Virus record (IMG/VR): IMGVR_UViG_3300014720_000015
Location: 1-64,000 of that record
Reading direction: 5' to 3' (one strand)
DNA length: 64,000 bases
Origin: a virus
The position numbers were made by a program, and so were the translations under genes. The notes under the pieces were generated by a model. That model saw only the letters and a list, made by a program, of their open reading frames with translations. It searched no databases and was not told the DNA's origin. Shown here piece by piece: positions 30,479 to 46,500 of the stretch (its first letter is position 1; each line of letters opens with the position of its first letter).

Positions 30479-31888
30479 ATGAGTAAAATTGAAAAAACTA
30501 ATTTTAATTATCTAGGTGTTGATTATCAATATAGTTTGATAAACCAAATCATTGTTGATACTAAATTTGGTGAGGGTATCATAGACGCTATTGACCCAAA
30601 TTATTTTGAAACAGTGGACCTTAAAAATATTGTTGCTGAGATTAGGAATATTAAAGATTCTTACGGTTCAATACCAGACTATCCGACCTTAGAGTTGAAA
30701 TTAAAGCAAAGTAACGATAGTATTGTACTTAACTTTGTTTTAGCTAGTTTAGATAAAGTTAGGGGTTTAACAGTAAAAACACCTAAATTAATACAGGAAG
30801 AGGCTATTAAATTCTGTAAACAACAAGAGTTAAGTAAAGCTGTCAAAAAAATACAAAAATTAATTGATGGTGGTAAATCTAGTGATTTTGATACCGCCAA
30901 TGAAATTATAAAAAAAGCGTTGGATGTTGGATATACTAAAGAGGACGATACGACCTTATTTGATGGTATGGAAGAGGTTTTAGCGGATGATTATCGAAAT
31001 CCAATCTCAACTGGTATACCAAAATTGGATGAAATTATGAATGGTGGTCTGTCAAAGACGGAATTAGCGGTTGTTGTTGCGCCATTCGGGATTGGCAAAA
31101 CTACCTTAGCTACTAAACTGGCAAATAGCGCATTTAATAACGGTTACAATGTACTTCAAATCTTCTTTGAAGACCAACCTAAAGTAATTAAAAGAAAACA
31201 CTATTCGTGTTGGACCAAGATTGAATTAAATAATTTAGGGTTATTTAGGGATGAGGTTATCACCAAAGTAAAGGAAATGGAGCAAAACTCTAAAGGTAAC
31301 CTTAAACTGAAAAGATTTGCTAGTGATGGAACAACGATTAAAACAATTAGAAAATATATTGATAAGAAAATTTCAGAAGGTTTCAGACCAGATTTAATTA
31401 TATTGGATTATATTGATTGTATTCAACCATCTAAGAAATTCGATGATTATTATGCTGGTGAAGGTAATGTTATGCGTGAATTTGAAACAATGATATTAGA
31501 CCTTAATATGGCTGGATGGACATTTGTTCAAGGTAATCGAAGTTCAATAAAGGCTGATGTTGTTGAGGCTGACCAAATTGGTGGTTCAATTAAAAAAGGT
31601 CAAATTGGTCACTTTATTATGAGTATAGCTAAAAGTTTAACACAAAAAGAAAGTGGCCATGCTAATATTGCGATACTTAAATCTAGATTTGGTAGAGACG
31701 GTTTGGTGTTCCAAGATTGCATTTTTGATAACTCTAAAATTCAGATTGAAATCGGTGAAGAGCAAAACGCTGTAACATCCTTTGAAGCTAAGACTGGTAT
31801 AAATGGTGGTAACCAAGCTATTATTAGTAATGCTTTAGATAGAATTAAAGCCGCAAAACAACTTGAAAGCGGTCAAATAATTGATTAA
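30479..31888 (+). CDS. Replicative DNA helicase, DnaB/T4 gp41-like
   Basis: The 469-residue protein has the RecA-type helicase core: TGIPKLDEIMNGGL, a P-loop at about 201-209 (APFGIGKTT), LIILDYIDCIQP as Walker B, and a later QGNRSS segment with the sensor-type glutamine. It unwinds DNA at the fork and interacts with primase. The N-terminal ~170 residues fit the helical N-domain of DnaB-like proteins. It lies in the replication block and is followed 15 bases later by nrdB. Confidence 0.9.
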   Translation: MSKIEKTNFNYLGVDYQYSLINQIIVDTKFGEGIIDAIDPNYFETVDLKNIVAEIRNIKDSYGSIPDYPTLELKLKQSNDSIVLNFVLASLDKVRGLTVKTPKLIQEEAIKFCKQQELSKAVKKIQKLIDGGKSSDFDTANEIIKKALDVGYTKEDDTTLFDGMEEVLADDYRNPISTGIPKLDEIMNGGLSKTELAVVVAPFGIGKTTLATKLANSAFNNGYNVLQIFFEDQPKVIKRKHYSCWTKIELNNLGLFRDEVITKVKEMEQNSKGNLKLKRFASDGTTIKTIRKYIDKKISEGFRPDLIILDYIDCIQPSKKFDDYYAGEGNVMREFETMILDLNMAGWTFVQGNRSSIKADVVEADQIGGSIKKGQIGHFIMSIAKSLTQKESGHANIAILKSRFGRDGLVFQDCIFDNSKIQIEIGEEQNAVTSFEAKTGINGGNQAIISNALDRIKAAKQLESGQIID

Positions 31889-31903
31889 TAAAAAAAAAAT
31901 ATA

Positions 31904-32857
31904 ATGTATTTAAGAAATAAAGACGTAGGTAAGAGATATTCGATATTCCCAATAACCCATAATGACATTTGGGAAAGATATAAGAATGCTGAATCACAAA
32001 CGTGGGTAGCTGAAGAGATAGACCTAAGTAAAGATAGGTTTGATGAACTTAAAGATAATGAAAAAACTTATCTTAAGAATATATTGGCGTTTTTTGCCAT
32101 ATCTGATGGTTTAGTCATTGACAATCTTGCAACTAATTTTCTAAATGAAGTAGAGATATTGGAAGCCCAATATTTTTACGGTCATCAAACTTTCATTGAA
32201 CAAGTACATGCCAATGGATATTCATTATTAATAGATACATATATTAAGGACTTAATTGAACGAGACGCATTATTTAATTCAATGGAAACAAATCCAGCAG
32301 TTAATAAAAAAGCTGCTTGGGCTGAAAATTGGATTGAACACCCGTCATTTGCCCATAGATTGGTGGCGTTTGCGTGTGTAGAGGGTATTTCATTTGCCAG
32401 CGTATTTTCTGGTGTATTTTGGTTCAGAAGTCGTAATAAAATGCCAGGTCTTGGAAGTATGAATGAACTAATACTTAGAGACGAAACAACACATTATGAG
32501 TTCGCTCTTAATCTTTATAAGGAATATCTAAAAGATAATTATAAACTATCAAAATCAGAACTTAGAAATATAATACTTGGTTGTTATGAGGTTGAGAAGA
32601 TTTTTGTTGAAGAAAGTATGCCAGACGGACTTCAAGGACTAACAAAATCAGATATGGTTAAATATGTTCAGTATGTAACAGATATTGTTTTAAGTGATTT
32701 TGGTTGTGAACGAGAATTTAATGTTAATAATCCATTGGAGTATATGGCCAGAATAGGTCTTTCAGCTAAAAATAATTTCTTTGAAAAGAGAGATGGTGAA
32801 TATACACGAGTAGAGATACCCTCATCCATGGATGGTGTTTTTGATGAAGATTTTTAA
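31904..32857 (+). CDS. nrdB: Class I ribonucleotide reductase small subunit
   Basis: The 317-residue protein is NrdB. It shows EQVHANGY, giving metal ligands E99 and H102 and the radical-bearing Y106 with the spacing of E. coli E115/H118/Y122. Further family motifs are FFAISDGLV, EAQYFYGHQ and ILRDETTHYEF. It houses the di-iron tyrosyl radical that starts catalysis in NrdA, giving dNTPs for phage replication. It is 12 bases upstream of nrdA, in the usual coupled arrangement but with the small subunit gene first. Confidence 0.93.
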   Translation: MYLRNKDVGKRYSIFPITHNDIWERYKNAESQTWVAEEIDLSKDRFDELKDNEKTYLKNILAFFAISDGLVIDNLATNFLNEVEILEAQYFYGHQTFIEQVHANGYSLLIDTYIKDLIERDALFNSMETNPAVNKKAAWAENWIEHPSFAHRLVAFACVEGISFASVFSGVFWFRSRNKMPGLGSMNELILRDETTHYEFALNLYKEYLKDNYKLSKSELRNIILGCYEVEKIFVEESMPDGLQGLTKSDMVKYVQYVTDIVLSDFGCEREFNVNNPLEYMARIGLSAKNNFFEKRDGEYTRVEIPSSMDGVFDEDF

Positions 32858-32869
32858 AAAAAGATAAGA

Positions 32870-34852
32870 ATGAAAATTGTAAAAAGAGACGGTACGAAAC
32901 AAAATTTTGCACCAAACAAAATATTGACTAGAATTAAAACCCAATCTAAAGGGTTAAACGTTAATCCTGATTTATTATTTCAGGAGGTAATACCATTAAT
33001 TTCTGATAATATAACAACCACTGAGGTTGATGAAATTATAGCGTTCAAAGCTGCTGATAAAATCATCCAACACCCAGACTATTCATTATTAGGTGGTAGA
33101 ATATTGTTAAGTAGACAATCAAAACTAATAGGTAAAGAATTACAAGAGGTTGACCTAACTTATGACTTTTTTGGTGCTACAACATTCTTAACCAAATATT
33201 CAATGAAGAGTGACGATAATTCACCAATTGAATTACCATCTTGTATGTATAATAGGGTAGCTTCATTTTTATCCGAAACACCAATTGAAAAGAGAAAATT
33301 ATTAGACGAATTAAATTCAAAAAGGGTTAACTTTGCAACACCAACATATACCAATGCTGGTATAGAAAAACGTGGTGGTATGATTAGCTGCAACTTGACT
33401 CATTTAGAATCTGACACTATTGAAGGAATCGAAGAAACATTAACAAAGATTTCTTATGCCTCAAAAGAAGGTTCTGGTATTGGTTTACTTATTGACCCAA
33501 TCAGAAGCAAAGATAGTTATGTAAGTTCTTTTAATGGTAAAGCTGGTGGTGTGGTAAGGTTAGCTGATATGGTTCAATCTAAGATGCGATTCTATAAGCA
33601 AGGTTCACGCTCTGGAAGTTGTGCTTTGTATCTATCAGTATGGCATAGAGATATCATTGATTTTCTTGAATTAACACTTCCTGTTGGTGATGAGCAATTA
33701 AGAACTAGAGATTTGTTTACGGCTGTTGTAATAAATGACCTATTCATGGAGAAATTACAATCAGGGGAAGATTGGTATATATTCTGTCCAAACGACATTA
33801 AAAAAGCTGGTTTAAGACCACTATATGACTTATATGGTGACGAATTTGTTATGGAGTATAATAAAGCTGTTGAATTGGGTATAGGTAAAGCAATTAACCC
33901 TAAAAAGATATTTGATGCGATAATTAAATCACAAGTGGAAAGTGGTAAGCCATATGTTATGTTCAAAGATAACGCCAATAAAAGAAACATGCAAGACAAT
34001 ATTGGTGTTATTAAACAAAGTAATCTTTGCATAGAAATTTTTCAAGCAAGCAAACCAAATTACACACCGCAATGCACATTAGCATCATTAAATTTAGCTG
34101 AACATTCAGATTTGAAATCAATAGCTAAAAGTACCAGAGTACTGGTTAGAGCTTTAAATCGTGTTATTGATAAGAATAAGTGGTCTGATGAATGGAGTAA
34201 GAACGCTGGTGTTAACCAAAGAGCATTAGCAATCGGTGTTGCTGGTATGGCTGATTTCTTTGCAAAGAAAAAAATATCTTATGAATCAGAAGAAGCCAAA
34301 CAATGGAATAATGACATTTTTGAAACAATGTATAAAGCTGCGGTACTTGAATCTTCTAAAATTGCTGAAGAAACTGGTGAGAATTATCCAGCATGGGAAG
34401 GTAGTAGATACTCAAGAGGTGAAACATATATTGATGGTTGGTCACCAAATGAAAAGGGTGAACCAATACCAATGTACAATAGCCTTTTATTGGGACTAAT
34501 GCCGACTGCAAGTTGTTTTGTTTCTACAGGTAAAATCAAGACTGATAAGGGTGTTTTATCATATCAAGATATCTTAAAAATGAACGGTATTGATTACGAA
34601 ACTATTGAAACACTAAATGAACAACAAGTATTTAAATTAAAAGTACCATTAAAGGTCGATAGTAGATATGGATATAGGGATATACATAATATTATCTATA
34701 ACGGTAAAGTAGAAACATTAGCAATAGAAATGGAAGATGGTGAAATATTTGAATGCACACATAATCATAAATTTCTTGTTAATCGTGATGGTAAAGAGGT
34801 TTGGTTGAGAGCCGATGAGTTAAATGAAAATGATGATATTATAGAAAAATAG
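32870..34852 (+). CDS. nrdA: Ribonucleotide reductase large subunit, N-terminal part fused to split-intein N half
   Basis: Residues 1-548 are the N-extein. They include an ATP-cone region at the start (IVKRDGTKQNFAPNKIL) and the catalytic residues C174 (SCNLT), N385, C387 and E389 (SNLCIEI) and C402. After MPTAS comes C549, the first residue of an intein N half of 112 residues. It carries a Hint-type TxxH motif (CTHNHKFLV), then RADELNENDDI and a stop. The rest of NrdA is encoded at 36152-36766. The two products should associate and splice in trans to give a 717-residue enzyme. The stop is not a frameshift, because the junction has complete intein motifs on both sides. Confidence 0.93.
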   Translation: MKIVKRDGTKQNFAPNKILTRIKTQSKGLNVNPDLLFQEVIPLISDNITTTEVDEIIAFKAADKIIQHPDYSLLGGRILLSRQSKLIGKELQEVDLTYDFFGATTFLTKYSMKSDDNSPIELPSCMYNRVASFLSETPIEKRKLLDELNSKRVNFATPTYTNAGIEKRGGMISCNLTHLESDTIEGIEETLTKISYASKEGSGIGLLIDPIRSKDSYVSSFNGKAGGVVRLADMVQSKMRFYKQGSRSGSCALYLSVWHRDIIDFLELTLPVGDEQLRTRDLFTAVVINDLFMEKLQSGEDWYIFCPNDIKKAGLRPLYDLYGDEFVMEYNKAVELGIGKAINPKKIFDAIIKSQVESGKPYVMFKDNANKRNMQDNIGVIKQSNLCIEIFQASKPNYTPQCTLASLNLAEHSDLKSIAKSTRVLVRALNRVIDKNKWSDEWSKNAGVNQRALAIGVAGMADFFAKKKISYESEEAKQWNNDIFETMYKAAVLESSKIAEETGENYPAWEGSRYSRGETYIDGWSPNEKGEPIPMYNSLLLGLMPTASCFVSTGKIKTDKGVLSYQDILKMNGIDYETIETLNEQQVFKLKVPLKVDSRYGYRDIHNIIYNGKVETLAIEMEDGEIFECTHNHKFLVNRDGKEVWLRADELNENDDIIEK

Positions 34853-34868
34853 TAGTGGGCATAACACT

Positions 34869-34925
34869 TTTTAACAGTTAAATATATTTATATAATAATA
34901 ATAATAACGATAATAACTGTTAAAA
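34869..34925 (+). promoter_or_regulatory. 12-bp inverted repeat between intein half and endonuclease gene
   Basis: TTTTAACAGTTA (34869-34880) and TAACTGTTAAAA (34914-34925) are exact reverse complements around a 33-base A/T loop, 10 bases before the endonuclease ATG. In RNA this can act as a terminator-like or RBS-masking hairpin. Confidence 0.6.
34885..34898 (+). promoter_or_regulatory. TATTTA-type motif upstream of the intein-associated endonuclease
   Basis: TATTTATATAATAA lies in the loop of the inverted repeat at 34869-34925, 37 bases before the ATG. If it is a promoter, the transcript would lack the 5' arm of the hairpin and so escape it. Confidence 0.35.
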
Positions 34926-34935
34926 CGTATTATAT

Positions 34936-36162
34936 ATGAATTTTAATTACAAACGAAATATTACTAAATACCTAAAAGAGAATGATAAAATAAACTTAAA
35001 TGGTGAAGAATTATGTATTATTAGAAAAACTTTAGGTTTAAATAAAGAGATTGACAATAATATGTTATTTTTTTATCGAATACTTCTTATGAAGTATAAC
35101 GGTTTAACCTTAACTAAAATAACAAATGATTTAAATGAAATTGATGATTTTAATATGGCCAGATATTTTAAATTTATCGAATTTAAAAATAATAACCAAT
35201 TTGTTGTTAATGAAGAATTTTATAAATTAAAATATGGTAATGATTTAGGTGTAAAACTATTTAAAGAAAAAGATTTAAAAAGACTTATTAATTCACCATA
35301 TAAAATAGACTATTGGGTTAAAAAAGGTTATACACACGATGAATCTATTTTAAAGGTTAAAGAATATAAAACCAAAAAATCAACTTCATTAAAAGGTTTT
35401 ATAAAGAGACATGGTAAAAAATTAGGAAGTGAAAAATTCAAAGAATTTCAAGAAACATCAAAACACACATATGATAAGTTTATCGATAAATATGGGGAAG
35501 AAATTGGTGAAAAAAAATGGTTGAGTTATACACAATCTAAAGATTCGACTAGTTATAAATGGGCATTAAAAAAATGTAATGGTAATGTTTCCGAAGCCAA
35601 TAAACTTTTAAAAGAAAGGAAAAAAAGTATTAAAACTACTTTTGAAAAAATTCTTAAAAAGTTTGATGGTGATGTTGAAAAAGCTACTATAGAATATGAA
35701 AAAATAATTAATAGTAAAACTGTTAAAATAGGTAGGGCTAGTAAAGAATCGTTAAAGATTTTAAAACCTTTTTATGAAAAACTTATTAATTGTGGTTATA
35801 AAATTGGTGATATTAAAATGGGTGTTGAAAATAACTATGAGTTAGTTATTTATGATGTTGATACTAAAAGACCATATTTATATGATTTTGCGATTAAAAG
35901 TAAAAAAATAATAATAGAATATAATGGAGAAGCATGGCACCCTAACTATATGAAGTTTTCAACTGACTGGTTAATGGAAAACTGGTGTCATAAAAGAAGT
36001 AAAAAAGATGCAATTCACTTTATAAATAAAGATAAAAATAAAATAAAAATTGCTGAAGAACATGGGTATAAAATTTTAACTTTGTGGTCGTCAGATAAAT
36101 TAGAAATAAATAAAGAAAGAGTAAATAATTTTTTAAAAGAAAATAAAATATATGAAGATTAA
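34936..36162 (+). CDS. Free-standing homing endonuclease inside the split intein locus (Vsr-like)
   Basis: The 408-residue protein lies between the two nrdA/intein halves. The C-terminal region has the EDxHD/Vsr-like signature: IIIEYNGEAWHPN with E328 and H335, a downstream Lys-rich helix and a final YKILTLWSSD strand. The N-terminal ~260 residues contain repeated GKKLGSEKFKEFQE or GEEIGEKKWLSY units, probably for DNA recognition. Split inteins with such a gene between the halves are known as fractured genes (Dassa and colleagues, 2009), and this fits that arrangement. Its end overlaps the start of the C half by 11 bases. It probably cuts intein-free nrdA alleles. Confidence 0.85.
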   Translation: MNFNYKRNITKYLKENDKINLNGEELCIIRKTLGLNKEIDNNMLFFYRILLMKYNGLTLTKITNDLNEIDDFNMARYFKFIEFKNNNQFVVNEEFYKLKYGNDLGVKLFKEKDLKRLINSPYKIDYWVKKGYTHDESILKVKEYKTKKSTSLKGFIKRHGKKLGSEKFKEFQETSKHTYDKFIDKYGEEIGEKKWLSYTQSKDSTSYKWALKKCNGNVSEANKLLKERKKSIKTTFEKILKKFDGDVEKATIEYEKIINSKTVKIGRASKESLKILKPFYEKLINCGYKIGDIKMGVENNYELVIYDVDTKRPYLYDFAIKSKKIIIEYNGEAWHPNYMKFSTDWLMENWCHKRSKKDAIHFINKDKNKIKIAEEHGYKILTLWSSDKLEINKERVNNFLKENKIYED

Positions 36163-36766
36163 AAGTATTAAAGAAAATGGTGTTAAACCAACATGGGACA
36201 TTGAAGTACCAGAAATTCATGAATACATAACAGGTAACGGTTGTGTGAGTCATAATTCTGCGATTTTATTAGGTAGTTTTGAATCATTTGAACCAGTTAC
36301 AGCTAATCTATTTACCAGAAGAGTTGGTCAAGGTGAATTCTTAGTGGTTAATAAGTATCTTGTAAATGAATTGATTGAATTGGGTTTATGGGATTCTGAT
36401 ATGATTGATAAGGTGATTTCTAATAAGGGTAGTATACAAACCATAATGGAAATTCCAGAAGATGTTAGATATCGATATAAGGATGTTTGGGAGATACCAC
36501 AAAAAGTATTATTAGACCTATCAATAATTAGAAATAAATATGTTGACCAATCACAATCATTAAATGTATATCACTCAGATGCTAAGTATTCAAAGATTGC
36601 CAGTGCTTTAATGTATGCTTGGAAAGGTGGACTTAAAACTGGAGTTTATTACACAAGAAGTAAGTCAAAATTAGATACAAATACAAAGTTAGCAACGTCA
36701 AAAATAAACGAAACACCAGAAAAACCAAAAGATAGTCCATTTGAATGTTTTGGTTGTAGTGCATAA
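36152..36766 (+). CDS. nrdA: Split-intein C half fused to the C-terminal part of NrdA
   Basis: Residues 1-35 form the intein C half, with TWDIEVPEIHEYITGNG and a terminal SHN. The penultimate His and final Asn are present, and Ser36 is the +1 residue that starts the C-extein (SAILLGSFESFEP). The 169-residue C-extein contains the radical-transfer tyrosine pair (GVYYTR) and ends FECFGCSA, the shuttle cysteines of NrdA. Joined to the N-extein it restores an MPTAS-SAILLGS sequence, matching the uninterrupted motif of other phage NrdA proteins. The stop codon TAA lies inside the R'' box of the first attC-like site, so the cassette array begins exactly here. Confidence 0.92.
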   Translation: MKIKSIKENGVKPTWDIEVPEIHEYITGNGCVSHNSAILLGSFESFEPVTANLFTRRVGQGEFLVVNKYLVNELIELGLWDSDMIDKVISNKGSIQTIMEIPEDVRYRYKDVWEIPQKVLLDLSIIRNKYVDQSQSLNVYHSDAKYSKIASALMYAWKGGLKTGVYYTRSKSKLDTNTKLATSKINETPEKPKDSPFECFGCSA

Positions 36767-36813
36767 CGGTGAGTATAAGCCATCGTTTTAATGTGGCTTA
36801 TACAGTGTTGTAC
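36761..36813 (+). other. attC-like site 1, directly after nrdA
   Basis: R'' GCATAAC (36761-36767), stem GTATAAGCCA (36773-36782) with TGGCTTATAC (36794-36803), 11-base loop, R' GTTGTAC (36807-36813); 53 bases. R'' contains the nrdA stop codon and has no matching cassette start in view. Confidence 0.75.
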
Positions 36814-36846
36814 ACAGTACGGGTTTAATGAATTAAAAATAAAATT

Positions 36847-37260
36847 ATGATAACGGAATTAGTAAAGCAATGGGAAGAAAACAAGCATAAGCTTGAAGAG
36901 TATTTCAAAACGACAAAACAAGATGAATACGATAGCTATGAAGCTATTGTAAAGAAGATATTTGAATTGTGCATACCCGAAGCAACCACTTATAACGGAT
37001 GGGCTTTGGATAAAATGACTGTAATTGATGATGGTGATTATCAAGGTACACAAATATTTATTGTGCCTACTGACACTTACCAACCAAGTGTGGAAGATTA
37101 TGTAATGACTGACACTTATTACGGTAGTTGTAGTGGTTGCGATACTCTTCAAGCGATTAGTGAGTACGATTATGACCTACCAACAAATGAACAAGTTAAA
37201 GAGTATATGACCCTTGCTTTACATTTAGTGCAGAAACTTAAAAGGTTAGGCACAGAGTAG
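36847..37260 (+). CDS. Cassette 1 protein of unknown function (137 aa)
   Basis: The 137-residue acidic, soluble protein has no signal peptide or membrane segment. An N-terminal helical part (ELVKQWEENKHKLEEYF) is followed by a beta-rich middle (MTVIDDGDYQGTQIFIVP), a GSCSGCDTLQAI cysteine pair and a final helix (MTLALHLVQKLKRLG). I recognise no function. It lies alone between attC-like sites 1 and 2 in the same direction, the standard layout of an integron cassette, with an A-rich leader of its own. Confidence 0.75.
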   Translation: MITELVKQWEENKHKLEEYFKTTKQDEYDSYEAIVKKIFELCIPEATTYNGWALDKMTVIDDGDYQGTQIFIVPTDTYQPSVEDYVMTDTYYGSCSGCDTLQAISEYDYDLPTNEQVKEYMTLALHLVQKLKRLGTE

Positions 37261-37266
37261 TATTGT

Positions 37267-37362
37267 GTACAACGGACGAGTGTATGGGTAGTGGCACATA
37301 CACCGAACCTTTGAATTATGCCACAAACTTTAACGTGCCATTACTTATACACATTGTTGTGT
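37267..37362 (+). other. attC-like site 2
   Basis: R'' GTACAAC (37267-37273) is complementary to the R' of site 1. Stem arms at 37280-37297 and 37335-37352 pair over 18 bases with three G-T positions. R' GTTGTGT (37356-37362). Total 96 bases. Confidence 0.85.
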
Positions 37363-37387
37363 GTAGTAGCGGTTTAATAACAGAAAG

Positions 37388-37603
37388 ATGACAGTAGATA
37401 GAGAACATACAGAAATTTTTGACCAAGCACACCAAATGTGGGCAGAAGGTACAAGCATTGGAAGCGGAGAAGGTTTAGAACCAAAAGAACACGACATTCA
37501 ACACTTATTAGGTGGAGAGGGTTGGGTTGCTGATGAAATTGATATTTGGTTTGATAGCCTTCAAAAATTTTGGCGATGGAGTTGCAAGATAGTAAAACCG
37601 TAG
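37388..37603 (+). CDS. Cassette 2 protein of unknown function (71 aa)
   Basis: The 71-residue, acidic, Trp- and Gly-containing protein begins TVDREHTEIFDQAHQMW. It has a Gly/Glu-rich centre (GSGEGLEPKEHD) and an aromatic C-terminus (IWFDSLQKFWRWSCK). No family is known to me. Its stop lies 7 bases before the R'' box of site 3, as is typical of compact cassettes. Confidence 0.65.
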   Translation: MTVDREHTEIFDQAHQMWAEGTSIGSGEGLEPKEHDIQHLLGGEGWVADEIDIWFDSLQKFWRWSCKIVKP

Positions 37604-37610
37604 CTATTAC

Positions 37611-37707
37611 ACACAACGGTTTCGGGCTTGGCGTTAGTGCCACCTTGCAAGAACTTTAAATTTAGGCACAAACTATCTGGTGGCATTACGCCAAACCCGT
37701 GTTATCG
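37611..37707 (+). other. attC-like site 3
   Basis: R'' ACACAAC (37611-37617) is complementary to the R' of site 2. Long arms at 37623-37644 and 37679-37699 pair with one mismatch and one extra base on the left arm, a typical attC extrahelical base. R' GTTATCG (37701-37707). Total 97 bases. Confidence 0.85.
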
Positions 37708-37748
37708 GATAGTTCATTTTTCGTGGGTTGGCATTTAAGAATTTAAAA

Positions 37749-38051
37749 ATGGAACAAAAATTTAAAACACCAAACATTGCTTTTCAAAATGTCATTTCAT
37801 TTACTTGTTCTGATGATGCAGTAAAACCGCTATTAGAATTATTTTCAAGACTACGAAGTCTTGGACAAATGGGAAGTAGTAGAGAAGTGGTAATTGATTG
37901 GGATGGTGATGGTAGAGATAGACTTGAAAATATTTCAGTAAATGGAATGACATTGGATGCTTGGGAGTCTGAATTTGCAAGACTAAATAAAATCAGGGAA
38001 GATTTTGAAAAGCAAGAACCTTCTTCTGAGCAGGAGTCGGAAGAAAAATGA
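37749..38051 (+). CDS. Cassette 3 protein of unknown function (100 aa)
   Basis: I prefer the ATG at 37749 (100 residues); a TTG at 37728 would add seven residues. The product starts EQKFKTPNIAFQNVISFTC and has a central VVIDWDGDGRDRLENISVNG that is beta-rich. The C-terminus is acidic and charged (KIREDFEKQEPSSEQESEEK). No function was recognised. The stop codon lies 5 bases before the R'' box of site 4. Confidence 0.7.
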   Translation: MEQKFKTPNIAFQNVISFTCSDDAVKPLLELFSRLRSLGQMGSSREVVIDWDGDGRDRLENISVNGMTLDAWESEFARLNKIREDFEKQEPSSEQESEEK

Positions 38052-38056
38052 ATTTC

Positions 38057-38148
38057 CGATAACGGAACAGGTGTATGAGCCGTGCCTGTTCGGAACTATC
38101 GAATTTACTACGGCTTTTAATTGGCATGGCTTATACACCATGTTAGCA
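38057..38148 (+). other. attC-like site 4
   Basis: R'' CGATAAC (38057-38063) is complementary to the R' of site 3. Arms at 38070-38086 and 38123-38139 pair over 17 bases with two G-T or A-C-type differences. R' GTTAGCA (38142-38148). Total 92 bases. Confidence 0.85.
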
Positions 38149-38162
38149 ATCTGTAAAAAATT

Positions 38163-38429
38163 ATGGCAAAATTAAGATTAAACTCAGAAGAAAGAATGCG
38201 AATCACCGCAGACTATAAAGAAAATAACTTCATTGACGTGTGTGGGCATAAAGATGAACTTGGAATGAGCGTTGAATTTTACCCAACTATGCAATATATT
38301 GAGATACGTAAAAAAGGTGGGGTGTGTAGGCAATTTATGTTTGAAAAGAAAGGGCATAAAAAACATTATGACTTTGGATATTGGAAAGATGCAGAAGTTA
38401 TTTTCTCTCTCAACGAAGTACGGCAGTAA
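38163..38429 (+). CDS. Cassette 4 protein of unknown function (88 aa)
   Basis: The 88-residue, basic, beta-rich protein starts AKLRLNSEERMRITADYK and continues FIDVCGHKDELGMSVEFYP. Several aromatic residues follow, with a KKGHKKHYDFGYW segment near 62-74. No domain was recognised. It begins 14 bases after the R' box of site 4, so its leader is short. Confidence 0.7.
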   Translation: MAKLRLNSEERMRITADYKENNFIDVCGHKDELGMSVEFYPTMQYIEIRKKGGVCRQFMFEKKGHKKHYDFGYWKDAEVIFSLNEVRQ

Positions 38430-38443
38430 TAATTTTTTATTGT

Positions 38444-38497
38444 TGCTAACGTCTGATGATAAACAATCGTTGTAATGTTGTTTATCATTTGTTATAC
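38444..38497 (+). other. attC-like site 5
   Basis: R'' TGCTAAC (38444-38450) is complementary to the R' of site 4. A perfect 11-bp stem is formed by ATGATAAACAA (38456-38466) and TTGTTTATCAT (38478-38488). R' GTTATAC (38491-38497). Total 54 bases. Confidence 0.82.
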
Positions 38498-38562
38498 ACA
38501 GTACGGTTTATTAAGGTAGAATGTTGATACAAAGAGCGGATAAAAACTTTTAAAAAATTTAT

Positions 38563-38910
38563 ATGAAAAATACAAGAGAAAACGCAGAAAAATTTATATG
38601 GGACTTTGGTAAAGGGAAAAGTTTCGTAGATAGACTGGAAGGAGTACCAGATTTTGTTGATTTATTGACTGAGTATGGTAATAAAGTTGAAAACCAATAC
38701 ATACCGAATGATGCACATTCGTTTGAAGTATTTGCTATAAAAGATAGCGAGGATTCACCAACTGGAAAACAAGCATTTATTGGTTTTAAACTTGATAATG
38801 GGAACTTTCATTTTGTTGGAGTACCATACACTGAACCAATAAAAAATAAACAAAACTGGTTCTCGAAATTTTTTAAAAGTTTTATAGACAAACTTAAATT
38901 GAAACACTAA
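38563..38910 (+). CDS. Cassette 5 protein of unknown function (115 aa)
   Basis: The 115-residue protein has an N-terminal helical part (NTRENAEKFIWDFGKGKSFV), a beta-rich middle (HSFEVFAIKDSED, QAFIGFKLDNGNFHFVGVP) and a basic amphipathic C-terminus (NWFSKFFKSFIDKLKLKH) that could bind a membrane. No family was recognised. It is the last gene of the array and lies before the shortened site 6. Confidence 0.7.
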   Translation: MKNTRENAEKFIWDFGKGKSFVDRLEGVPDFVDLLTEYGNKVENQYIPNDAHSFEVFAIKDSEDSPTGKQAFIGFKLDNGNFHFVGVPYTEPIKNKQNWFSKFFKSFIDKLKLKH

Positions 38911-38921
38911 TGTAGTATTGT

Positions 38922-38961
38922 GTATAACTAGGATATATACACACCTTTTAGTAAGTTATTG
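38922..38961 (+). other. attC-like site 6, short and possibly degenerate
   Basis: R'' GTATAAC (38922-38928) is the exact complement of the R' of site 5. Downstream only a 7-bp stem (ACTAGGA with TTTTAGT) and a weak R' GTTATTG (38955-38961) can be proposed. It probably marks the end of the array and may be truncated. Confidence 0.5.
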
Positions 38962-39072
38962 ATTTTAATATAGTTACAGGGTCATTTTATTAAAAAATAT
39001 AAAGATTTAAAAAGAAATCTTATAATTGATATATTAATTTACAAAACTTATTGTTCCAGTATATTTACTATT

Positions 39073-39459
39073 ATGGCACAAGGTAAATATATTAATATTA
39101 GATATCCATTTAGGGATAGCAATCAAGGGTTTTATCTTGATTTAAATAATACTGATGCAACAGCTATCAGGTCAGACCTACTCCACCTTCTTTTAACACA
39201 AAAGGGTCAAAGGTTATATATGCCAGATTTTGGTACAGACCTACTTAAGTATATCTTTGAACAAAACGATTCTAAACTATCGTCCGATATTAAATTTGAT
39301 ATTAATGAAACCGTTAAGAAGTACATACCAAACCTAAGAATTAATGAGGTTATCGTTGATAGAGATGAAAATAATGAACATAAAGTAACATTGACAATAG
39401 ATTACACCGTAACTGAAGATGTGTTTGAACAAAATGATGTTATTGTGATTAATCTTTAA
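39073..39459 (+). CDS. Baseplate wedge protein, T4 gp25-like
   Basis: The 128-residue protein has the size and motifs of gp25. It shows an early IRYPFRDSNQGFYL, DATAIRSDLLHLLLTQKGQR and RLYMPDFGTDLLKYIFEQ (the most conserved segment), then VKKYIPNLRINEVIV and a final beta-strand. gp25 clamps the wedge (gp6/gp53) to the sheath in T4 and initiates sheath contraction. The next full gene is gp6-like, the order expected in contractile systems. TATTTA (39062-39067) lies just 5 bases before the ATG, probably too near to be a promoter of the same kind. Confidence 0.92.
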   Translation: MAQGKYINIRYPFRDSNQGFYLDLNNTDATAIRSDLLHLLLTQKGQRLYMPDFGTDLLKYIFEQNDSKLSSDIKFDINETVKKYIPNLRINEVIVDRDENNEHKVTLTIDYTVTEDVFEQNDVIVINL

Positions 39460-39483
39460 TTTCAAAATTTAACCATTATAATA

Positions 39484-39498
39484 TATTTATATCTAAAG
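39484..39498 (+). promoter_or_regulatory. TATTTA-type motif, left copy
   Basis: TATTTATATCTAAAG lies 8 bases before the start codon of the truncated gp6 copy. It is identical to the right copy at 41286-41300. Confidence 0.4.
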
Positions 39499-39506
39499 AA
39501 TTTATA

Positions 39507-39614
39507 ATGGCACAAAAAATACCATATTTTGCTAGAAACTTTGCTGACGTAAGAACTGAATTAGTTAACTATGTTAGACAATATTACCATTATTGGTTTA
39601 AAATATATGTATAA
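39507..39614 (+). pseudogene. Truncated 5' copy of the gp6-like gene
   Basis: The first ~27 codons match the start of the intact gp6-like gene at 41309 (AQKIPYFARNFADVRTELVN). Then the sequence diverges and ends after 35 codons, running into the 3' end of the antisense endonuclease gene. It retains motif and start codon and may be translated into a short nonfunctional peptide. It is best read as the left footprint of the endonuclease insertion. Confidence 0.85.
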
Positions 39615-41212
39615 CTGCCACAATCATAAATCTTATATAAACCATTATCTCTTAATATCTCATCAGCTGTTTTACCATTAAAATCAAAACCCATATCATA
39701 AAGTTTATGTTTTTGATACTTAAATCTACTCTCTCTATTTTTACCTTTAGAAATTGTGAAAGATGGTTTATTGATTGATTTTAGTTTAAACCCTAATGTT
39801 TCATACATATTACCAGTACTCCACCTTCTATCAGCATAACTAATAATTTCTTTTGGTTTATATTCTCTAATGAAATATTTAAGTAATTTACTAGCACCAC
39901 CAACAATAGTAGTATTAAGTTTATTACAAAATCTAAGTAACTCAGTCTTTTTATGTTTTATAACACCCCTTTTACCAAAAGTCATTATACTAACTAATTC
40001 ATTATTATAATAAAGTCCTAAATTAACCTTACTACCAACGGCACCCTGAATGTGATTTTCATTAAGGAAGTTAGTTTTTTCTTTTGTAGGTACTTCTTTA
40101 ATTTGGCATTTCCTAGCATATATTCTATTTTCAGTTATACCTAACAAGTTCTTTAATCTACTCTTAACAATATCCTGTTTATATAACCATTCATCTTCAA
40201 AGATATGTATTAATCTAACACCTTTAGCTTCACACTCTTTGGTTTTATTTAAGTGATAGTCTTTATCTTTATGTAATTCAGAATGCCAATATAAACCATT
40301 GAATTCAATGGCTAATTTATGTTTTGGAAGATAAATATCTAATTCGTATGGTTCAATAATGTCCCTACAATTTTCTAATATACTAAACCCAAAAGAATTA
40401 ATAAAAGCCACAATGTCTTTTTCAATATTAGATATACTATTTAAACATTTTTTACAACCACTACCGTTTCTATGTGAATCAGGTCTTAATTCAAACTCAC
40501 CATGTTCTGGACAAATTATTGTAACAGGCGTTTTAATATCAACATAATCAACTTTACTATAGTCGTATGTATTACCATGTATTTGACCCATTTTTTCTAT
40601 AAAGGATTGATTATCAAAAATTTTAAAAGCGCAATATGGGCATCCCCGATTTTTAGACGTAAAGTTATTTGGTGTTGTTATAAATTCACCATGCTCTGGA
40701 CATATGATAATAACATCCGTGACACTATTAACGTAATTAACCTTTGAGTAATCATATTTGTCACCATAAATCTCTTTAGATTTTTTTATAAAAAGTTTAG
40801 TATCCATTTTAGCGGTACCACCGCAGTATTTACAACCTTTACCACTTAAATGATTAGTTGGCGCTTGCTCAAACTTACCATGTTCTGGACAAATTATTGT
40901 TACTTTAGTTTTATTATTAATATATTCCACCTCTGAGTAGTCATATTTATTACCATGAATCTCTTTAGCCTCATTAATAAAAGCATCCAAACCCTTTTTC
41001 TGCCTACTAACTTGTTGCTCTATTGAACATTTTGGGCAACCTTGCTTCCCAGACACATGTTTTGCGGGGGCCTTTTCAAACACACCATGCTTTGGGCATA
41101 TTATTTTGACTGGTATATTATTTAATTTGTAGTCAACTTTAGAATAGTCGTATTTATCACCATGGACTTTTTTAGCCTTGATTATAAAATTTTTAGTGTT
41201 ATTTTTTTTCAT
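39590..41212 (-). CDS. Homing endonuclease with four zinc-ribbon repeats and Vsr-like nuclease domain
   Basis: The 540-residue protein begins with four ~65-residue zinc-ribbon repeats (KKVHGDKYDYSKVDY type, CPEHG and CKYCG or CPKCS knuckles), related to those of the gene at 5893. Then follows a Vsr/PD-(D/E)xK-like nuclease segment, LAIEFNGLYWHSE with E303 and H309, and IHIFEDEW. The C-terminal ~170 residues (GLYYNNELVSIMTFGKRG, ISYADRRWSTGNMYETLGF) form a domain seen in other phage endonucleases. It is antisense between two copies of the gp6 start. The arrangement suggests insertion near gp6 codon 27 with restoration of the target gene. Confidence 0.85.
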   Translation of the reverse strand: MKKNNTKNFIIKAKKVHGDKYDYSKVDYKLNNIPVKIICPKHGVFEKAPAKHVSGKQGCPKCSIEQQVSRQKKGLDAFINEAKEIHGNKYDYSEVEYINNKTKVTIICPEHGKFEQAPTNHLSGKGCKYCGGTAKMDTKLFIKKSKEIYGDKYDYSKVNYVNSVTDVIIICPEHGEFITTPNNFTSKNRGCPYCAFKIFDNQSFIEKMGQIHGNTYDYSKVDYVDIKTPVTIICPEHGEFELRPDSHRNGSGCKKCLNSISNIEKDIVAFINSFGFSILENCRDIIEPYELDIYLPKHKLAIEFNGLYWHSELHKDKDYHLNKTKECEAKGVRLIHIFEDEWLYKQDIVKSRLKNLLGITENRIYARKCQIKEVPTKEKTNFLNENHIQGAVGSKVNLGLYYNNELVSIMTFGKRGVIKHKKTELLRFCNKLNTTIVGGASKLLKYFIREYKPKEIISYADRRWSTGNMYETLGFKLKSINKPSFTISKGKNRESRFKYQKHKLYDMGFDFNGKTADEILRDNGLYKIYDCGSYTYILNQ

Positions 41213-41285
41213 ACTTATAGCCGTTTACTTGTAATTACTAACAAATATACAAAAACTTCACAAATAAAAAAAATCATTTATAATA

Positions 41286-41300
41286 TATTTATATCTAAAG
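41286..41300 (+). promoter_or_regulatory. TATTTA-type motif of the intact gp6-like gene
   Basis: TATTTATATCTAAAG lies 8 bases before the ATG at 41309, part of the 111-bp repeat. Its duplication lets the gene be expressed downstream of the insertion. Confidence 0.45.
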
Positions 41301-41308
41301 AATTTATA

Positions 41309-43129
41309 ATGGCACAAAAAATACCATACTTTGCTAGAAACTTTGCTGATGTAAGAACTGAATTAGTTAACTATGTTAGACAATATTATCCCCAAATCTT
41401 CAATGATTTCAATGATGCGTCCGTTGGGATGATGCTCTTGGAACTCAACGCTGCTGTAGGAGACATGTTATCATTCCATACTGATAGGATGTTTCAGGAG
41501 ACCCAGATTAATTTTGCACAGGAGCGTTCAAGTGTTTTAAGTATGGCTAGGACTTTTGGTTTAAAGGTACCAGGTAAAAGAGCCAGCGCAACGATTGTCG
41601 ATTTCAGTGTAACCGTACCTGTTTTTGGTGATACGTTTGATTTATCGTATGCACCAGTTATAAGACAAGGTGCTCAAGTTTCTGGTGCTGGAAAGGTTTT
41701 TGAATCTATGTATGATATTGATTTTTCATCACCTTTCACTATTGGTGGTATACCTAATAGATTGGTAATACCTAACTTAGATGGCTCTGGTAATATCATT
41801 AACTACACGTTAACCAAACGTGAAATGGTTATTAATGGTGTAACAAAGATTTTCAAGCGAGCTATTGGTCAAAATGATGTTAGACCATTCTTTGAGGTTA
41901 CACTACCAGATAATGATGTTATATCGATTAATTCAATAATAACCTTAGAGGGTACAAACTATACACAGACGCCAAGCATTGACCAATTCTTGAATTTTGA
42001 TAATCGGTGGTATGAAATGGATGCTTTGGCTGAGGATAAAGTTTTTATTGAAGACCAACTATCACCAAGTACACAGTCAGGAATTAAGACAGGTAAATGG
42101 GTTAGAGTTGATAGGCGGTTTATTAGGGAATATACTGATTTAGGTTTTACGAACATAATATTTGGTGGTGGTTCACAAGATATTGGTTCATTATGTGATT
42201 TTGATGTTGATGTTACATTAGTTAATAGAATTGGTGATTTCATTAATAATATGAGTTTGGGTACCACACTAACACCAAACACAACAATGTTTATCAGTTA
42301 TCGTGTTGGTGGTGGTGGTGCAACTAATTTGGGGCCTAACGTAATCAATACAGTTAATAACGTTAATATGTTGGTTAATGGTTCAAACCCAACAATCAAT
42401 TCTGCTGTTAGAAATTCATTAACGGTAAATAACCCATTACCAGCTGTAGGCGGTAAAGATGAACCATCAGTTGAAGAGATACGAAACCTTGTAAGGTATA
42501 ATTTTTCAGCACAGAACAGATGTGTTACATTAAAGGATTACCAATCACGAATTCAATTAATGCCAGGTCAATTTGGTTCACCATTCAGGACTGGCGTTAT
42601 TGAAGACCAAAACAAGGTTAGTGTCTATATATTGACATTGAATAGTGACGGTAGTTTATCAAACCAAACAACATCAACATTAAGGAATAATATTTCAGAA
42701 TATCTATCTGAGTATAGAATGATGAATGACTATGTTGAGGTTAAGAGTGGTAAGGTTATAAATTTAGGTTTCGATATTGATGTTTTTATTGATAAACAGT
42801 ATCCACAGACACAAATTGTTAGTCAGGTTATTCAAGAGGTACAAAATTATATGGATATCAATAATTTCGATATGGGTGAATCAATATATTTAAGTCAATT
42901 AATTGAAAATATAAATAATGTTGGCGGTGTGTTGAATGTGATAAATATGCAGGTCTTCAATAAAGTCGGTGGTAATTACTCATTAAATGAGATATCACAA
43001 CCATTGATAAATGAAGAAACTTTGGAGATTGATTTATCACAGAATTATGCTCTTATAGGTGACCCAATTAGTATGTTTGAAATTAAGAATGTTGGTACAG
43101 ATATAAGGGTTCGAGTTAGGACGTCCTAA
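41309..43129 (+). CDS. Baseplate wedge protein, T4 gp6/baseplate J-like
   Basis: I chose the ATG at 41309 (606 residues) because it matches the start of the truncated copy; an open frame extends 49 codons upstream across the endonuclease leader but is not plausible coding. The protein shows the gp6/J-type pattern: FARNFADVRTELVNYVRQYY, SVGMMLLELNAAVGDMLSFH, RSSVLSMARTFGLKVPG, then a beta-rich core and SVEEIRNLVRYNFSAQNRCV, YVEVKSGKVINLGFDID. gp6 forms the iris ring of the baseplate. It follows gp25 in the canonical order. Confidence 0.9.
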   Translation: MAQKIPYFARNFADVRTELVNYVRQYYPQIFNDFNDASVGMMLLELNAAVGDMLSFHTDRMFQETQINFAQERSSVLSMARTFGLKVPGKRASATIVDFSVTVPVFGDTFDLSYAPVIRQGAQVSGAGKVFESMYDIDFSSPFTIGGIPNRLVIPNLDGSGNIINYTLTKREMVINGVTKIFKRAIGQNDVRPFFEVTLPDNDVISINSIITLEGTNYTQTPSIDQFLNFDNRWYEMDALAEDKVFIEDQLSPSTQSGIKTGKWVRVDRRFIREYTDLGFTNIIFGGGSQDIGSLCDFDVDVTLVNRIGDFINNMSLGTTLTPNTTMFISYRVGGGGATNLGPNVINTVNNVNMLVNGSNPTINSAVRNSLTVNNPLPAVGGKDEPSVEEIRNLVRYNFSAQNRCVTLKDYQSRIQLMPGQFGSPFRTGVIEDQNKVSVYILTLNSDGSLSNQTTSTLRNNISEYLSEYRMMNDYVEVKSGKVINLGFDIDVFIDKQYPQTQIVSQVIQEVQNYMDINNFDMGESIYLSQLIENINNVGGVLNVINMQVFNKVGGNYSLNEISQPLINEETLEIDLSQNYALIGDPISMFEIKNVGTDIRVRVRTS

Positions 43130-43148
43130 TTCAAAAATAAGTAACACT

Positions 43149-43180
43149 TTGTTAAGGTTATTGACTTAAATGTTATTTTG
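43149..43180 (+). promoter_or_regulatory. Possible host-type promoter upstream of the small membrane protein gene
   Basis: TTG (43149-43151), 21 bases, then TTATTTTG (43173-43180), seven of eight bases of TAnnTTTG. It is 22 bases before the ATG at 43203. Weaker than the three main sites because the second base of the -7 box is off. Confidence 0.35.
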
Positions 43181-43202
43181 TTTAAATTAAAGGTAAAAAA
43201 AT

Positions 43203-43529
43203 ATGAGTTGTGGTTGTAAAAATGTAAGAGATACTAGTGTTCCAGACGCTAAGTTAATGTCAACAAATAAATCGATAAATACTAATACCATATTTAAGTG
43301 GTTAATCTTTATTGGTATGGTGGTATTATCACCATTATTTTTACCATTTTTTATTAGTTTTTTATATAAATTAATAATCAAAAACCAAAATATGGACATG
43401 ACCCACACGCTAAAATCTATTGTCGAGCTAATGAAAACCAGTAGAATTTTAAATACTAAAAGTGATATTGATATTGTGGATTTAGAACTATATGATAATA
43501 ATTCTAAATTAGAACTGGTAAATGTCTAA
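43203..43529 (+). CDS. Small membrane protein of unknown function (108 aa)
   Basis: The 108-residue protein has a Cys-containing N-terminus (SCGCKN) and one strong hydrophobic segment, about residues 30-55 (WLIFIGMVVLSPLFLPFFIS). A charged helical C-terminus follows. This makes it a probable inner-membrane protein, N-in or N-out unknown. It is odd inside a baseplate gene cluster; its last 8 bases overlap the next gene. It could be a small lysis or superinfection-type protein, but there is no specific evidence. Confidence 0.7.
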   Translation: MSCGCKNVRDTSVPDAKLMSTNKSINTNTIFKWLIFIGMVVLSPLFLPFFISFLYKLIIKNQNMDMTHTLKSIVELMKTSRILNTKSDIDIVDLELYDNNSKLELVNV

Positions 43530-46500
43530 AACAATTAGAATACGGACAACACCTAATGGTGATGATAAGTTCATTAAAATCAATATGGAACAAGATTTTG
43601 ATTTTGTTGAAATCTTATCATTAAAAATATCTCAAAAAGAATTATATACAACCTTTTGTGCTGGTTATGGTGCGATAGTTGGTCGAGTATCTATTAATGG
43701 TGGTTTTGGTGTTCCAAATGCTAAAGTTAGCGTGTTTATTCCAGTATCTGAGCTTGATAGACAGAACGATAAGATATTCGGTTTATATCCATTTGAAACA
43801 ATTACTGATATTGGTCCTAACGGTTTAAGATATAATTTATTAAGTAAGGATAATCAAACAAACGATGATTGTTTTACGCCTGTTGGTGATTTTTCTGATA
43901 AAAGGACATTTTTGGATGACGACACGATGTTGGACATATATTGTGAATACTATAAATTCACTACAACATCTAATGCCGCTGGTGATTATATGATATTCGG
44001 TGTACCCACTGGCGCTCAGATAATGCACGTTGAGGCTGATGTATCAGACATAGGCATTATTAGCCAAAAACCATTTGACTTTGTTAGAAAGGGTTCATCC
44101 GAAGAGGTTTTTGAATCAACAACAAAGTTCAGGGGTAGTGAGGAAGATTTAGATTTCAATTTACAAATAATCAAACAATCACCGATAAGTGTTAATGTAC
44201 AACCATACTGGGGTGATGACGATAATTGTAATGTTGCAATTACTAGAAGGGATATTGATTTAAAAGCTGCTATCACACCACAGGCAATATTCATGGGTTC
44301 AATTTTTGGTGATAACGAAATTAATTCACTAAGTTTAACCTGTAAACCCAGAGAAAATATGGGTACACTAAATGACCAAACAACTGGAACTGGTAAAATT
44401 GAAATGGTCAGAGAAACATTATCAGGCAATATCGAAAGGTTTGATGTCGGTGGTGGACAATTAATCGATTCTGACGGTACATGGGCTTATCAAGTACCAA
44501 TGAATTTGGACTATAGGGTTACGGATGAATATGGTAATTTAGTACCAACCGATGACCCAAAGAAAGGTATACCCACTAGAGCCAAAGTTAGATTTAGAAT
44601 TAAAATGAATATAACTGGTGGCGAGGGTAATCTAAGAGAACGAGCAGCATACTTAGTTCCCAATAATCCAATAAATGTTGGTGGATTAAATACCGATTTT
44701 GAATTTGGTCCAAATACCAAAAAAGAAAATTTAGCCGAATTAGTTTGGAATGGTATTTATACTGTTAAAAATTATATACCCAGAGTTCAAAAATCAGACA
44801 CCCACCCAAGCAGTAGAAGTGGCGATAAGATTAGAAATTTTATTGGAATCAAAGACGTTGATAGTGCCAGAGGTAAGTATACACCATTTCCATATAATCA
44901 TATGACTTTCGAAACCGAAGCTTTGTTTGGTTTCATATGCACTTTAACAATTGCTTTTGCTGGTCTTATTAGTTTTATAAATACTGGTATTATATCGCTA
45001 TTAAACATAATTATTAGTACGATTAATGATGTTTTAGATATATTTGGTATACCACTCATTGATTATATAGCCTGTATTACGTTAGAATGTGATAATGTAC
45101 CATATGCACCAGGTTGTTGTTCATCAGATAGTCAACAGTTTCCATGTACATTACCAAGAGCTGATTTAGGTTGTGATGCCGCTGGTAACGGTGTTGTTTG
45201 TGTCGGAAGTGAAATTAATGTAAATGATTGGAACCAGACATTACCACCAGGCGATGCTGGATATACTAAATGTATTGCAATATCTCTGGCAAAAGACCTT
45301 AATCTATTTAAATTCGATTTCTATAACGATTGGGTAAATGGTACATTATATTCACCTTTATTCAAGGTTAGAGTGAAAGACGGTGACCCAAATAACCTTA
45401 GTTACGGCCCACATAAGTTTTGTGAGTGGTCTAATGACGGTATACCATCAAATCTAAGTGTCAATAATGATAATAATGGTACACCAGATAATACTAGTTA
45501 CGATGACATATTTTTAGTTGATACTTGTTTTGGAATACCTTTAGGTTGTCCAAATACAACTTATCCTAATTGTGGAGAACTTAATTTATGTAATAACCAA
45601 AGACCGAATAATCAAGGCCATAGGTATATAGGACAACCATATAACATCAAACATGGTTTAATCGTTTATTATGATGAAAACTATTATTATGCTCCATATT
45701 CTAAAACTAATGATGAGTATTTATTAGCAACTGACATAGTTACACTTGGCTCAAGCGTAAAGTGTCATTGGTTAGGTTTACCATCAGTTTATGAATTGTT
45801 TGTTGACACAACATACAAATTACCACCATATTTGGATGAAACAGACCAAAACTTCACAGTATCTGGAATGGATAATTTAAGTGCCCAATTAAGCTCTAAC
45901 CCATGTCAAGATAATTTACCACCTCTTAGTTCTTTATTTTTCAGTGTCAACTGTTTTTTTGCTAGAACAACAAATATCAGTTGCGGAAATCTAAGAAGAC
46001 AGTGTGAATTAGGTGTTGGGTTTGACGAGACTAGAGGTAATACACCACCAGATGATGAACTCACAGCGGACGACATAGACATTAGATTTACTAGAAACGT
46101 GTTTGCATGGATGAATGGTTATGGTTTAGATGGTACGCCATTAAATAGTTTATATACCACACCTTTTAGTATAAACACAGATTTTAATAATCTACCATCA
46201 TGTGGTAATCAAGTTGGGGATTTAGATACATTACTAAATGGTTTAAGTTATAATCGCTTTAGGTATGGTTGGGTTGATAGTACCCAAGTCGGTAAAATGT
46301 GTGACGCATTTCCACAGTCATTAAACTCTTTTTATTTTTACTTTGGTTTAAATAGAAACAAAACCGCATTAGCTAAAATGTTAGCAAAATATTTTGCACC
46401 ATGCCCAGTTCAAGATAAACCAGATTTTCTAATATTAGGTGATATTACCGATAGTACCGATTTAAATAATTGTAATGGTGAAATAGATGTTACGATACAA

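Follow-up and report, generated by a model that had tools for sequence, protein, structure and literature searches.

Cassettes of classical integrons extend from a GTT box to a hairpin site (attC) behind the gene, in the order anchor-GTT-gene-AAC-hairpin-GTT, and cassette insertion at attG sites is the subject of an existing literature. Clusters of attC sites lacking an integron integrase (CALINs) are already known from virulent phages (for example Polaribacter phage P12002L, MW202573), and the integrase IntI1 used 5 of the 6 phage attC sites tested (Qi et al. 2023, PMC9892861). That paper also reports methyltransferases in phage CALINs and integrases in temperate phage genomes, as complete integrons and one In0. 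Here we analyze a 64,000-nucleotide stretch of DNA from a large T4-like phage (the window; bases 1-64000 of the 162,536-base IMG/VR record IMGVR_UViG_3300014720_000015). At 36761-38961, between the end of nrdA (PF02867) and gp25 (PF04965), where the original prediction had placed a cassette array, palindromes alternate with five small open reading frames (ORFs). We conclude that a phage-encoded, integron-like gene-swapping system very likely exists in dozens of phage contigs and that the window array is a member of it.

This system resembles the CALINs of Qi et al. in its attC arrays without IntI in virulent phages and in its methyltransferase cargo. It differs in a phage-encoded short recombinase, an anchor and a reversed polarity, none of which is described in the excerpts of that paper (PMC9892861). 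A search of the open-access literature, outside which lie preprints and most subscription papers, did not turn up a phage-encoded short recombinase accompanied by an anchor of its own and by reversed cassettes. The original prediction had called a cassette array at such a place in a myovirus core region unusual; CALINs in phages as such are already in the literature.

Complementary cassette ends and unit boundaries

Each GTT box (R') of the window array is complementary to the next AAC box (R'') across the ORF, in uninterrupted runs of at least 8 bases (Table 1). The original prediction had given 7 of 7 complementary bases for all five cassettes and 13 of 14 for three of them; both figures were recovered, the three being cassettes 1, 2 and 5. 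Runs of 7 or more occur in 0.6% of random GTT/AAC pairs taken from the window, and the observed pairing is the best of the 720 possible assignments of the R'' boxes (1/720 as good). Each cassette carries the circular-junction signature expected of an integron-type array. The first R'' box, at the nrdA end, pairs with the first R' box only over its core (5/12).

The attC character claimed for sites 1-5 is borne out in part by the hairpin arms. The top arm score in six one-strand shuffles was 12.2; sites 2 and 4 lie above this value, site 3 is level with it, and sites 1 and 5, taken by themselves, stay below it because their arms are short. Folding of the circular-form gene strands, a check that the prediction had proposed, gave negative z values for all five sites (Table 1). 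No attC hairpin was found at site 6 in the arm-score scan. Because the arm scanner alone is noisy, the detector used on other loci demanded paired sites with a complementary junction. At a score of 24, 20-kb shuffles reached 24.4 and some nrdA loci up to 25.1, and the cassette-pair threshold was therefore raised to 29.

On the sequence evidence, the mobile unit is AAC|hairpin-GTT-ORF-AAC on the gene strand (the boundary reading GTT on the other strand). With the boundary at AAC, each ORF is preceded by its own hairpin and not, as had been claimed, followed by its own site. Relatives of ORF1 in viral contigs number 13, the second record of this phage included. Two of these loci, L261 and L262, share one 511-nt block (94.7% identity) that starts at the AAC before the hairpin and ends at the AAC behind the gene, exactly AAC...AAC. 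Their flanks are unrelated, with nothing else in common by blastn (6.4 and 4.8 kb compared), and in 20-nt steps there are 18-20 matches inside the block and 2-8 outside it, at both ends. In L259 and L263 the unit-1 homologue has both end boxes altered together relative to the window. Shared cassettes within the recombinase loci described below are too few to place the boundary, which is therefore settled by these relatives of cassette 1. In addition, of 59 array listings (L085 and L097 being one array), 46 have an AAC that partners the last GTT of the array, and this AAC mostly precedes the anchor and not a hairpin.

The box rules hold beyond the window. For 172 distinct cassettes, selected on nothing but hairpin arms and box positions 0-6, end-box positions 7-9 and 11-14 pair in 74-95% (30-61% when shuffled); at position 10, 78% have a G-T pair on the gene strand. 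The statistic was redone on this set because the score that had selected an earlier set of 181 cassettes credited the tested positions; the larger set has the same pairing pattern, with the position-10 G-T pair in 80%. The spacer next to AAC is mostly 5 nt long and that next to GTT 2 nt, and by sequence and folding the joined end boxes can form a stem of about 14 pairs in which one mismatch is fixed. As in integrons, complementary cassette ends come together in a hairpin site.

A search of viral contigs with the nrdA C-terminus gave 136 relatives, 80 of which were used. The usual gap between nrdA and gp25 in these relatives is about 90-130 nt. One phage whose nrdA end is 91% identical (L003) has a gap of 121 nt and no array. 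Another, at 94% (L002), has an array of different cassettes, with no blastn similarity to those of the window; its left boundary is that of the window (the nrdA stop read as GCATAACGG), as is its last sequence, TATAACTAGRATATATAC, so that the anchor motif of the window also ends this array. Longer gaps with other content in L042, L074 and L079, and by length also in L029 and L076, indicate that the gap accepts varied inserts. A homing-endonuclease-like ORF and repeated small ORFs were seen by eye in the L074 and L042 gaps.

Array content thus differs between related phages. This bears on a rival explanation in which the palindromes are terminators or other repeats, the genes form a fixed phage operon and the complementarity arose by box duplication. 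Several relatives do have a terminator-like hairpin in the nrdA-gp25 gap (by eye), and attC-like hairpins may terminate transcripts. The pairing, however, tracks the cassettes and not the sites, near relatives differ in cassette content, and phages that are otherwise unrelated carry unit 1 bounded exactly by AAC. The block shared by L261 and L262 already contradicts a fixed operon. We regard this explanation as wholly implausible.

The array is also not an assembly slip of a single sample, since a second record, IMGVR_UViG_3300013131_002268, is identical (100%) over 30496-46496, a stretch of 16,001 nt.

A short recombinase and anchor beside phage arrays

No ORF between nrdA and gp25 is a recombinase, and taken alone the window array is a CALIN. 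A PF00589 search of the whole record gave one match, near 143.9 kb, in an ORF of 199 aa (143,462-144,061) that matches the integron integrase model TIGR02249 and Xer models. It is missing about 70 residues from the central part of the catalytic domain; all of 21 aligned relatives except the truncated L108 keep them, and intact relatives have about 267 aa. Two further arrays were found in this genome with the paired-hairpin detector. One, at about 91.9-93.9 kb, ends before a 40-aa ORF that by eye resembles a recombinase start; the other, at about 141-143.4 kb, is immediately followed by the internally deleted recombinase. The window array ends with a similar leader and anchor, the recombinase being absent there. 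The description "without integrase" is thus right for the window array and wrong for the genome.

Relatives of this recombinase were collected from viral contigs (the best 80 of 166 were used, some partial or truncated, such as L108). Arrays adjoin the recombinase in 54 of the 80 loci, a locus being counted when one or more cassette pairs reaching the chosen score lay upstream of the recombinase and on its strand; among controls the figures were 0/40 for shuffled loci and 1/80 for nrdA loci. Most loci without an array (23 of 26) have less than 1.9 kb of upstream sequence, and where at least 1.9 kb is present an array is found in 47 of 50. A motif of the form AAC-TANNATATATA is conserved at the array end; 60 of 76 loci have it no more than 130 nt upstream of the recombinase start, as against 9 of 1520 shuffled stretches. 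By its sequence and place, beside the recombinase at the end of the array, it would correspond to attI. Site 6 of the window, which had been counted as the sixth of the palindromes, shares this motif with the recombinase upstream regions, and we read it as an attI-like anchor. In L113 (about 4917-4945) we noticed by eye an apparently empty cassette, in which an R' box nearly touches an R'' box and is followed by the anchor, with no ORF.

Upstream of the phage recombinase, 161 of 167 cassettes read towards it; the usual, though not strictly defining, integron feature of cassette genes reading away from attI is thus missing from the phage arrays. The longest ORF lies on the hairpin-polarity strand in 175 of 181 distinct phage cassettes, and none of these 175 extends past the AAC.

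The phage recombinase is not an IntI by the usual definition, which is the presence of the additional domain (PMC9668308), as judged from sequence and model comparisons. An IntI-type insert was not found in 32 aligned recombinase relatives, and in L104, 36 residues stand opposite 84 of IntI4 in the additional-domain stretch (about 48 shorter). Two intact phage homologues score 160 and 159 bits against TIGR02249, whose cut-off is 265. In NCBIfam both rank XerA first, with 175 and 186 bits against the curated 220 of NF040815, a score that six chromosomal relatives straddle (213-238 bits). An AlphaFold2 model of L104 (pLDDT 84) has as its best match among those listed the archaeal XerA (4a8e; Z 22.0, rmsd 9.0), and aligns to IntI4 (2a3v) with Z 19.6 and rmsd 3.6 over 245 of 313 IntI4 residues. 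Residues R132, K157, H216, R219, H242 and Y251, which we take to be catalytic, are invariant in the 32 sequences. In INPHARED, 839 records match the L104 recombinase, none at 60% identity or more, the highest among the 30 matches listed being 39.7%. An excerpt on an integron-like subgroup calls the integron-specific insertion "not fully conserved" (PMC8138268); sequences of short relatives may therefore be known already.

There is the possibility that the recombinase is an ordinary lysogeny or dimer-resolution enzyme whose nearness to arrays is incidental. It is like the Xer recombinases (XerA, XerC/D) and those used by Xer-exploiting phages in fold and length, XerA leads both the structural matches listed and the NCBIfam ranking of two homologues, and annotated "integrases" of Polaribacter and Cellulophaga phages are 33-40% identical to the protein of this phage or of L104. 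Xer recombinases act on dif sites, and we know of none tied to cassette arrays. The array association, which is nearly complete where enough upstream sequence is present, the recombinase's own anchor context and the 15 of 80 chromosomal relatives that also lie near arrays (see below) make an incidental neighborhood very improbable.

Compared with IntI integrons (class 1, chromosomal and archaeal), the phage system has in common the circular-junction complementarity, the GTT/AAC boxes, the folded hairpin site, an attI-like site beside a tyrosine recombinase, and mostly one-gene cassettes without assigned function. It differs in that the recombinase is shorter (L104) and phage-encoded, the genes read towards it, and the site stem has about 14 pairs with the fixed mismatch. 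On paper, the whole system would work like an integron.

Cargo was examined in 147 of 179 distinct cassette proteins (five near-identical loci were excluded beforehand, and the window cassettes were scanned apart). Few of the 147 had any match: Pfam gave 5 families, in at most 6 members, PADLOC 67 and PHROGs 36 families; among the 25 listed of each of the latter two, most are methyltransferases or unnamed. The matches of note are DNA methyltransferases, one PARP-like and one HNH-type protein. The few methyltransferases hint faintly at counter-defence cargo.

Chromosomal relatives, polarity and a proposed mechanism

A scan of bacterial and archaeal genomes gave at least 533 recombinase relatives; the best 80, which were used, are 41-55% identical and mostly from Bacteroidota. 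In 15 of these 80 (L197, L246, L251, L245, L248 and ten more) an array lies near the recombinase, which is short and lacks the IntI insert. These 15 span Bacteroidota and other phyla and may escape IntI-based integron surveys; the excerpt of the IntegronFinder 2.0 paper names Salinibacter as a complete integron in Bacteroidetes proper (PMC9024848).

The chromosomal arrays share with the phage arrays a related recombinase, the hairpin asymmetry and the box rules, including the position-10 G-T pair in 76% of 38 cassettes; L180 and L227 score on both strands. They differ in sitting behind the recombinase stop codon and in gene direction: opposite to phage cassettes, 34 of 38 have genes pointing away from the recombinase, and 4 of 38 have them in the polarity sense. 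Therefore, phage and chromosomal arrays have one polarity with respect to the recombinase, and it is the phage genes that are turned round. In 9 of the 15 loci, 50-283 nt separate the recombinase from a GTT behind it that partners the nearest hairpin; in 2 the distance is greater, and in the other 4 no such GTT was located. A TATATA-like stretch precedes this GTT in L180, L199, L202, L214 and L251, similar to the phage site, and not in the other loci.

In a tree of 140 recombinases, left from 160 after removal of duplicates and of proteins shorter than 200 or longer than 330, the phage recombinases form one group apart from the chromosomal ones with support of 100. The group includes three contigs from metagenome-assembled genomes, two of which carry phage-type anchors. 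Because IntI and Xer references were not included, the tree is silent on kinship to IntI.

These comparisons bear on whether the window array is a passive CALIN, that is, host chromosomal cassettes that entered the phage through illegitimate recombination and that, if they move, depend on an integron integrase of the host. Such an origin would fit the absence of an adjoining recombinase, the same box rules in Bacteroidota chromosomal systems, and the published phage CALINs with their sites used by IntI1 (PMC9892861). We consider it unlikely: in the phages the genes face the opposite way from those of the chromosomal arrays, a separate group of phage recombinases occurs with an anchor and arrays next to it, and this one phage has three arrays, two of them with recombinase remains. 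Since a phage recombinase group with adjacent arrays exists, the window array is probably not merely a host integron fragment. We lean towards a second integron class, independent or ancestral, shared by large phages and Bacteroidota. It would consist of hairpin cassettes served by a short Xer-like recombinase, never with the extra helix I2, and its viral branch would be flipped for phage promoters.

In the mechanism that we propose for the phage system, excision of a unit as a circle would bring its end boxes together on either side of the hairpin, and the whole could fold into a single long hairpin. The short tyrosine recombinase (about 267 aa), encoded beside the anchor, would cut the folded strand at GTT. 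The circle could then insert at the anchor or a different cassette boundary and, in rare cases, at a lone GTT of some other phage; we infer these targets from the exactness of the unit boundaries. Seen from the anchor, the classical order would be kept with the genes flipped, so that array and recombinase would read one way and the genes could be read by phage promoters. The window array would now be served by a recombinase in trans, because the copies of this phage have decayed (one internally deleted, one a 40-aa remnant, one gone).

Several observations weigh against a phage-encoded, integron-like system of this kind. We infer cassette recombination itself from sequence comparison only. An intact recombinase was not found in the 162.5-kb record of this phage, which may be incomplete. 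Viral hallmarks were detected in part of the 22 recombinase contigs tested (terminase in 11, sheath in 6, 3 of these above the curated cut-off); with one or the other in 12 of 22, a good part is plainly viral, and the remainder rests on IMG/VR classing. L151 also carries two cassettes behind the recombinase, reading away from it. The cassettes of L017 (84% nrdA identity), which are yet others again, were recognized by eye and fall under the cassette score threshold. With regard to the unit boundary, only 2 of 31 similar cassette pairs within recombinase loci lie in differing context (1 at stricter identity), and the proof thus depends mainly on the single pair L261/L262. There is no downstream partner with a run of 7 or more in 13 of the 59 array listings. 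In a first-hairpin test, 14 of 39 arrays have such a partner upstream of the first hairpin, probably because the detector missed a hairpin there. ORF starts within hairpins were considered as proof of a hairpin-first unit and rejected, since they are no commoner than in other frames (67/181 versus 131/362).

Hairpin recombination by integron integrases has been attributed to I2, said to be absent from other proteins, and there has been speculation that integrons may be of viral origin (PMC7790495, in excerpt). Phage enzymes without I2 beside arrays that keep other integron marks make both ideas directly testable. If the system is as we propose, phages own a device that trades accessory genes singly, across unrelated phages, and IntI-based surveys may overlook such systems. 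If phages and Bacteroidota do share a second integron class, many "orphan" CALINs would be explained and viruses would stand near the origin of integrons.

Feature coordinates and neighboring genes

Table 1. Features from the nrdA end to gp25, in window positions. Arms, hairpin-arm score; z, folding of the circular-form gene strand; run, uninterrupted complementary bases between R' and R''.
Feature	Position	Strand	ORF	Evidence
nrdA 3' part	36152..36766	+		PF02867, 6.8e-36; TAA stop plus next C form the left AAC boundary (36765-36767)
Unit 1 hairpin (attC-like stem-loop)	36768..36806	+		arms 10.0; z -5.4
Unit 1, R' to R''	36807..37273	+	ORF1, 36847-37260, 137 aa	run 10, 13/14; PHROG_12588, 1.2e-16
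Unit 2 hairpin	37274..37355	+		arms 14.1; z -2.6
Unit 2, R' to R''	37356..37617	+	ORF2, 37388-37603, 71 aa	run 10, 13/14
Unit 3 hairpin	37618..37700	+		arms 12.2; z -5.4
Unit 3, R' to R''	37701..38063	+	ORF3, 37749-38051 from ATG (alternative TTG 37728)	run 9
Unit 4 hairpin	38064..38141	+		arms 14.4; z -5.0
Unit 4, R' to R''	38142..38450	+	ORF4, 38163-38429, 88 aa	run 8
Unit 5 hairpin	38451..38490	+		arms 11.0; z -4.0
Unit 5, R' to R''	38491..38928	+	ORF5, 38563-38910, 115 aa	run 10, 13/14
Putative attI-like anchor AACTAGGATATATACACACC and apparent leader remains	38926..38961	-		such a leader elsewhere precedes the recombinase ATG
gp25 (right flank)	39073..39459	+		PF04965, 8.2e-16

Searches of the five window ORFs against Pfam, PHROG, NCBIfam and PADLOC assigned no function. 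An INPHARED DNA search with 36000-39700 gave no match, and Rfam gave for the window a single chance-level match, under its gathering score. The only IMG/VR relatives of ORF4 are in the second record of the same phage. ORF1 has distant relatives (33-35% identity) in three Clostridioides phage records.

At 32870-36766, nrdA is interrupted by an intein: its N-part ends in a splicing domain (PF14890, under cut-off), followed by a 408-aa ORF without a Pfam match and by the C-part, which starts with an apparent intein C-end. The insert is absent from L002 and L003. At 39476-41388, a reverse-strand ORF of 540 aa (DUF723, treble-clef repeats, and MTES_1575 under cut-off) lies within the beginning of a baseplate gene (PF04865), and 111 nt of the gene start are duplicated on both sides of it with 98% identity.

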